Positions 2,682 through 12,381 of a DNA stretch of 39,661 nucleotides are shown here, piece by piece. This DNA comes from Granulicella sp. (lineage in GTDB: Bacteria > Acidobacteriota > Terriglobia > Terriglobales > Acidobacteriaceae). The notes beneath the pieces are model-generated. The model was not told the DNA's origin. It searched no databases and worked only from the letters and a program-made list of their open reading frames with translations. The DNA lies in NCBI GenBank assembly GCA_003142215.1, contig PLOT01000122.1, positions 7,711 to 47,371 on the forward strand. The letters are read 5' to 3'. Position 1 is the first letter of the stretch. Each line of letters starts with the position of its first letter. Both the position numbers and the translations under genes were made by a program.

Positions 2682-3599
2682 TCACGGCTTGCGGGCGAGG
2701 GCGATGCGCGGGATATGCTGCAGGTCGTCGAGGAAGCGGAGTTGGTTCCAGTCGGACAACAGAGAAGCAATGGCCTCTTGCTGGCCGTGGCCGATCTCCA
2801 ACGCGAGCAGGCCGTCGGGCAGCAGCGCGGCGCGGGCCTGGGGGATGAGGCGGCGATAGATGTCGAGACCGTCCGGACCGGCGAAGAGCGCGGCAGCAGG
2901 TTCGTGGTCGCGCACCTGCGGATGCAGACTGGCGCGGTCGGCGGTAGGAACGTAAGGCGGGTTTGAAACGATGGCGGCGAAGGGTAGTTCTGTAAGAGCG
3001 AGCGCGGCGAGCAGATCGGATTCGATGAATTGGATGCGGCTGGTCAGGTGGTGACGCGCGGCGTTCGCGGCGGCGACTTCGAGGGCAGCGGCGGAGAGAT
3101 CGACTGCGGTGACGTGCGCGTGGGGCAGGTGGAAAGCGAGCGCGATGGCGATGGCTCCCGAGCCGGTTCCTACGTCGAGAATACGCAGGGGCAGATGCTG
3201 GGACGAAGACAAAAGCAGATCCCTTCGCTGCGCTGCGGGATGACAAACAAATTCAGCGGGAGGCCTGGCAAACTCGGCGAGGACGGCCTCGACGAGCTGC
3301 TCGGTCTCGGGGCGGGGGATGAGGACGGCGGGCGTGACGCGGAGGGTGAGGCCGTAGAACTCCTGCTCGCCGGTGATGTACTGGATCGGCTCGTTGGCAA
3401 GGCGGCGCAGAACCAACGCGTCGTAGGCAGCCTGCTGGCCGGGCGTGAGCGAGCGGTTGGGGTCGGCGAGCTGCGCGGCGTGGGAGATCGCCAGCACATG
3501 GCGAAGCAGAAACGCGGCGTCGCGGGCGGCGTCTGCGCGCAGGTTGGGTGACGCGTCGAGCTGTCGGGTGGCGCTCGTGAGGGCTTCGCGGAGGGTCAT
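2682..3599 (-). CDS. prmC: Peptide chain release factor N5-glutamine methyltransferase
   Basis: 'LIPRPETEQLVEAVL', 'RILDVGTGSGAIAIALA', 'IVSNPPYVPT' (NPPY motif). Carries an extra ~24-aa in-frame segment (see findings). Confidence 0.93.
   Translation of the reverse strand: MTLREALTSATRQLDASPNLRADAARDAAFLLRHVLAISHAAQLADPNRSLTPGQQAAYDALVLRRLANEPIQYITGEQEFYGLTLRVTPAVLIPRPETEQLVEAVLAEFARPPAEFVCHPAAQRRDLLLSSSQHLPLRILDVGTGSGAIAIALAFHLPHAHVTAVDLSAAALEVAAANAARHHLTSRIQFIESDLLAALALTELPFAAIVSNPPYVPTADRASLHPQVRDHEPAAALFAGPDGLDIYRRLIPQARAALLPDGLLALEIGHGQQEAIASLLSDWNQLRFLDDLQHIPRIALARKP
3204..3250. repeat. Dispersed repeat (family B) inside prmC
   Basis: 'gaagacaaaagcagatcccttcgctgcgctgcgggatgacaaacaa' closely matches 12238-12280 'gaagcaaaagcagattcctccgctgcgctacggaatgacaa'. 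Confidence 0.8.
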
Positions 3600-3603
3600 A
3601 AAC

Positions 3604-3629
3604 CAGTGGTCAGTGGTCAGTGGTCAGTG
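3604..3629. repeat. Heptanucleotide tandem repeat (cagtggt)x3.7 immediately upstream of prmC
   Basis: Direct read: cagtggt cagtggt cagtggt cagtg. Confidence 0.95.
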
Positions 3630-12237: not shown

Positions 12238-12381
12238 CAGAAGCAAAAGCAGATTCCTCCGCTGCGCTACGGAATGACAAGAATTGGCGCTACGGAATGA
12301 CAACAATTGGCGCTGCGGAATGACAAACAGAGTTGGTTGCGGAATGACAAACAAGGGACGCTGCGGGATGACAAAGGATGG
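12238..12381. repeat. Family-B repeat followed by five degenerate tandem units (~22-26 bp)
   Basis: Units at 12265, 12288, 12311, 12337, 12359: cgctacggaatgacaagaattgg / cgctacggaatgacaacaattgg / cgctgcggaatgacaaacagagttgg / ttgcggaatgacaaacaaggga / cgctgcgggatgacaaaggatgg. Confidence 0.9.

Follow-up and report, generated by a model that had tools for sequence, protein, structure and literature searches.

How a conserved enzyme comes to carry a block of residues with no counterpart in most of its relatives is the question raised by prmC in the 39,661-nt stretch of Granulicella DNA analyzed here (the window). The sequence-only reading had proposed that a dispersed repeat lies in frame inside this gene. 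The source genome, G000, is a MAG of 3.64 Mb in 329 contigs, with 83.7% completeness and 5.6% contamination. The features of the two repeat copies in the window are as follows.

2682..3599, minus strand: prmC (hemK), encoding peptide chain release factor N5-glutamine methyltransferase, 305 aa, intact (open reading frame [ORF] and NCBIfam TIGR03534).
3189..3272, minus strand: expanded inter-domain linker F110-P137, 28 codons (codon comparison with the relatives G017, G074, G008, G035, and G009; low pLDDT).
3211..3251, plus strand: repeat head AAAAGCAGATCCCTTCGCTGCGCTGCGGGATGACAAACAAA, read in the prmC translation as FVCHPAAQRRDLLL (63-copy family).
3219..3223, plus strand: left hairpin arm ATCCC of the prmC copy (arm-pair covariation).
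3237..3241, plus strand: right hairpin arm GGGAT of the prmC copy (arm-pair covariation).
3242..3245, plus strand: unpaired end GACA (TGTC on the minus strand), a CGTC/TGTC-like tag (conservation among copies; tag definition from PMC3733652).
3252..3272, minus strand: degenerate 21-nt half-unit TTTGCCAGGCCTCCCGCTGAA, ahead of the head in the prmC reading direction (codon comparison, by eye).
12245..12377 (end approximate), plus strand: second copy, intergenic, with its head at 12248-12279 and four tandem half-units at spacings of 23, 23, 24, and 24 nt.

The PrmC ORF matches the NCBIfam profile TIGR03534 with an E value of 1.4e-81. Alignment with HemK/PrmC of E. coli covers residues 8 to 114 and 135 to 301 and leaves the stretch between them unmatched; together with the codon comparison, this places the insertion at the hinge between the N-terminal and methyltransferase domains, as the sequence-only reading had stated. 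That reading had called for an alignment with close relatives, in which the hinge is spanned by 6 codons in G017 and G035, 8 in G009, 11 in G074, and 15 in G008, versus 28 in G000. The extra linker is therefore real, but the bounds first given for it (about 24 aa, 3183-3264) are replaced by 3189-3272, with a net gain of about 22 codons (66 nt) relative to the closest short linkers. The GTGSG and NPPY motifs are undamaged, as had also been noted. We saw no target duplication at the site by eye, and an Rfam search gave no credible RNA family at the locus.

The AlphaFold model of PrmC has a mean pLDDT of 93.2, with values of about 50 in the insert and of 96 to 98 in nearly all of the remainder; the low-confidence residues all fall within 115 to 133. 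Its best PDB match in Foldseek is the PrmC/RF1 complex 2b3t (TM scores of 0.86 and 0.95). Judging from this model, the insert should be a disordered loop that leaves the predicted fold intact. PrmC carrying it would probably remain active. Tandem GTGGTCA-type repeats occur immediately upstream of prmC (window 3605-3628), and the short-repeat peptides TTDN and TNNQQ in the GlmM and PolA linkers of relatives resemble them. Another in-frame insert, FDAPGSPASGLGSLGWD, is found in a different loop of PrmC in the congeners G008 (L032) and G017 (L040) and is possibly a second intragenic repeat family.

A degenerate 32-mer describing the repeat core matches the window twice without mismatches (3214-3245 and 12248-12279) and never in 100 shuffles. 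The second copy had been placed at 12238-12280; its core stands, and the four half-units extending to about 12377 had gone unmentioned. A search of the whole genome, also proposed at the outset, found 63 copies in G000, while a reversed control pattern gave 0 matches. The conserved head spans 34 nt (about 34-41 nt) and reads AAGCAGAT[T/C]CC[T][C/T]CGCTNCGCT[G/A]CGG[A/G]ATGACAA. The first stem positions are nearly invariant (A in 97% of copies and T in 100%, facing T and A in 100% each); GAC is present in all 63 copies, and the final A of GACA is present in 98%. Positions 5 and 23 of the arms pair as T-A in 49 copies and as C-G in 13, with a single A-A, and a neighboring position covaries in G230, a member of another genus, in which the arms read TTTC..GAAA. 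These covarying pairs support the view that the hairpin is selected or copied as such. When folded with ViennaRNA, two of three variants form on the minus strand 5 bp, a 3x3 interior loop, and 2 bp closed by a 3-nt loop; the commonest variant folds differently from the other two.

Many heads are followed downstream by tandem half-units (GCTGCGGAATGACAAAC...) with a spacing of 20 to 29 nt, and most copies in G000 are single or have such trailing half-units. Some of the copies read in the congener G022 form inverted pairs about 110 nt apart. Those at L227 to L231 have recurring flanks and often lie at contig ends, and are perhaps a longer composite element. At L030, a different but related hairpin, GATTCTTCGCTCCGCTCAGAATGACA, adjoins a repeat copy and perhaps represents a sister repeat family. 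Copy number varies from 0 to 315 across congeners, with the maximum in G022 (88% complete). Distribution in the family is patchy: the repeat was matched in 13 of 150 genomes sampled, belonging to 9 of 79 genera. A further 24 genomes, drawn from the order or class outside this family, gave no match.

Rickettsia palindromic elements (RPEs), to which the prmC segment had been likened, include RPE-4 and RPE-6, two members of the CGTC-tagged REPs (Di Nocera et al. 2013, PMC3733652). These REPs carry CGTC (or TGTC/CCTC) unpaired at one terminus, have a stem of 8 to 9 bp, a loop of 4 to 5 nt, and a CCA tail, and occur mostly as head-to-head dimers (PMC3733652). In other bacteria they lie in frame inside genes for PolI, tRNA synthetases, and tRNA-modifying enzymes, and no dedicated transposase has been found for them (PMC3733652). 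The Granulicella repeat likewise has an unpaired TGTC end beside a stem that begins with AT, and sits in frame in ORFs that include those for PolI, a tRNA synthetase, and tRNA-modifying enzymes. Among the Y1_Tnp genes examined, none showed a link to it. It differs in its stem of five contiguous pairs with an imperfect interior, its innermost loop of 3 nt, its CTG(C) tail, and seemingly its tandem head-to-tail half-units, and Acidobacteriota lie outside the five phyla listed for CGTC-tagged REPs (PMC3733652). The element works like CGTC-tagged REPs; we do not claim membership.

Like RPE-4, RPE-6, and the longer RPE-1, it is a dispersed palindrome in frame in protein-coding genes. Unlike the RPEs, it belongs to a different host phylum, is read in at least four frames, and forms variable in-frame arrays of half-units. 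The comparison with Rickettsia is accordingly largely right and apt as an analogy: the in-frame intragenic habit, the TGTC tag, and the AT-first stem bear it out, while stem length and tail depart from it. GTAG REPs and REPINs share with the Granulicella repeat small imperfect hairpins, high copy number, and occasional intragenic copies; its consensus, however, ends in AAGCAG and GACAA and has no GTAG. MITEs measure 70-300 bp, have inverted repeats at their ends, and duplicate their target; the head here measures about 34-41 nt, and the possible composite in G022 would be longer. Searches of an open-access library, which omits many journals, turned up no account of a comparable element in Acidobacteriota.

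The prmC copy is one of about 16 of the 63 in G000 that sit within ORFs and keep the reading frame, in keeping with the original proposal of an in-frame capture; many of these ORFs are core genes. A copy was called intragenic when the frame was open and codon-position GC bias was present on both sides of it. Besides PrmC, the hosts are an M19 dipeptidase, two S9-type peptidase ORFs, PolA (two versions), TsaD, MnmG, MetG, HemH, an SSF plus beta-lactamase ORF, GlmM, PEP carboxylase (at a contig edge), and three less certain ORFs (L195, L221, and L026). Pfam or NCBIfam matches confirm TsaD, MnmG, MetG, the M19 dipeptidase, S9 peptidase, PolA, GlmM, SSF/beta-lactamase, HemH, and PEP carboxylase. 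We identified the RDD-like ORF of L026 and the S9-like start of L001 by eye, and we regard the ORFs of L221 and L195, which match nothing in Pfam or NCBIfam, as genes on the strength of codon-position bias. The copies at L205 and at L005, the latter close to the start of a permease, were counted as not intragenic. Most copies lie outside recognized genes, though genes occupy most of a bacterial genome. The two polA versions in G000 (L220 on contig C133 and L029 on contig C17) carry the same insert with different numbers of half-units, which suggests a mixture of related strains.

Four or more frames of the element are used inside genes: the peptide is LS(S/F)RSAAE(G/E)SAS in 12 copies, CHPAAQRRDLLL in PrmC, ADSSAALRNDKQ in 2, and KQIPPLRCGMTNK in TsaD. 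Array periods are divisible by three in all five intragenic arrays versus 3 of 14 elsewhere (p = 0.005), a difference that is partly built in, since a copy had to be spanned by an open frame to be called intragenic. The C-G arm variant, which in the main frame replaces F and E with S and G, accounts for 11 of 16 intragenic copies and 2 of 47 others in G000 (p = 5e-7). This excess was spotted post hoc and then recurred in G022, in 5 of 8 intragenic copies versus 1 of 97 others. It may reflect selection on the peptide, an older wave of copies surviving in genes, or both; purely random insertion does not predict it unless selection acted or the copies arrived in two waves that differ in age.

Several of these sites are common to relatives. 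G000 and G074 both have the TsaD insert but differ in how many half-units it contains; the linker there is short in G008 and others and unrelated in G017. The GlmM insert is common to G000 and G017, and the G074 site is empty. Both polA versions of G000 share their insert with G017 and G008, again with differing half-unit numbers. The same site in the SSF/beta-lactamase ORF is filled in G000 with a T-A copy and in G022 with a C-G copy, so that both arms differ; gene conversion or compensatory change would each fit these sequences. At the PolA insertion site of G035 (L268), a different duplicated peptide, GAPGLASQTWEGEPGAPGLASQTWEG, is found.

The prmC insert is absent from nearly all congeners that were read. 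Its only other carrier seen, G022, is the genome richest in the repeat, so the refuting pattern named at the outset, a segment conserved among repeat-free relatives, did not appear. The G022 insert is longer and shares with that of G000 the left junction GAG|TTTGC, the frame, and the arm variant, as well as a half-unit at this junction comparable to the 21-nt one in G000. Whether the two descend from one inherited event or from independent insertions into a hot spot is finely poised, with independent insertion a serious contender at somewhat below even chances. A PrmC tree built without the hinge has the form (G022,(G000,(G074,G017))), with modest support, and so places two genomes without the insert nearer to G000 than G022 is. 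Precise loss in G074 is also unlikely because the MKQ at its empty site matches that of the more distant G008. Against independent insertion stand the identical junction, frame, and arm variant, and an AU test that does not reject a single clade of G000 and G022 (p = 0.25); transfer of the allele by recombination could also have produced the pattern. Shared ancestry with recombination, independent insertion, and a wrong tree are all possible histories.

An insert seen in a single fragmented assembly could be an artefact of assembly or strain mixture, and the 329 contigs, the 5.6% contamination, and the two polA versions give some reason to consider this. The ORF nevertheless reads through between flanks that are normal PrmC domains, the independently assembled G022 has its own prmC insert at this very junction and with matching frame, and other intragenic copies are common to independent genomes. 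We rejected an artefact, which is extremely improbable, on the G022 insert and the inserts common to relatives at other genes. Movement by a RAYT (a Y1 HUH transposase), as for GTAG REPs, would account for a short imperfect hairpin at high copy number, and G000 does have RAYT-family genes (three Y1_Tnp matches). This mechanism is improbable: the number of Y1_Tnp matches is unrelated to repeat copy number across 25 congeners (rho = 0.03, p = 0.87), the 88% complete G022 assembly yielded no Y1_Tnp match despite its 315 copies, no repeat copy lies in the eight RAYT loci that were read, and the GTAG tag is absent. RAYT mobilization is thus weakened by both the counts and the loci.

A different possibility is that the element is useful to its host as a source of linkers, with copies encoding the Ser/Ala/Gly-rich LSSRSAAEGSAS favored and some intragenic copies adaptive. 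The preference for one frame, used by 12 of the 16 copies in genes (p = 3e-6 in a binomial test that gives the five open frames equal weight), the C-G excess in the genes of both G000 and G022, and a PolA insert peptide largely preserved across G000, G017, and G008 all argue for it. Yet purifying selection against hydrophobic or frame-breaking copies would yield the same bias. Most copies in G174 are C-G, which shows that this variant has no inherent restriction to genes, and an older C-G wave surviving only in genes is another fit. The prmC copy is read in another frame, and the pattern was picked out once the G000 data had been seen. We consider a useful linker unlikely. The fuller version, a mobile linker source for essential genes in which the minor arm variant is preferentially retained within genes, one frame yields a disordered linker rich in Ser/Ala/Gly, and linker length can evolve through in-frame half-unit arrays, is if anything a shade more doubtful.

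The segment in prmC is very probably a copy of a short, non-autonomous, hairpin-forming dispersed REP-like element that inserted in frame and is tolerated by a flexible linker. It probably persisted because five of the six frames of the element are free of stops and the linker tolerates added residues. The element would spread as a selfish sequence, mobilized in trans by a putative enzyme; neither a transposition event nor such an enzyme was observed. Tandem half-units would form later from the right half of the head, through local slippage or through template switching. Intragenic copies would then be mostly neutral survivors, in which purifying selection keeps the frame and a tolerable, linker-like peptide.

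These findings give a free-living soil acidobacterium a parallel to Rickettsia, in which small palindromes become part of core enzymes. Because congeners differ in the presence of the insert and in half-unit number at the PolA, TsaD, GlmM, and PrmC sites, the group offers a natural series for testing tolerated inserts against useful linkers. The same group is useful for finding what mobilizes CGTC-like repeats, which have no known enzyme.
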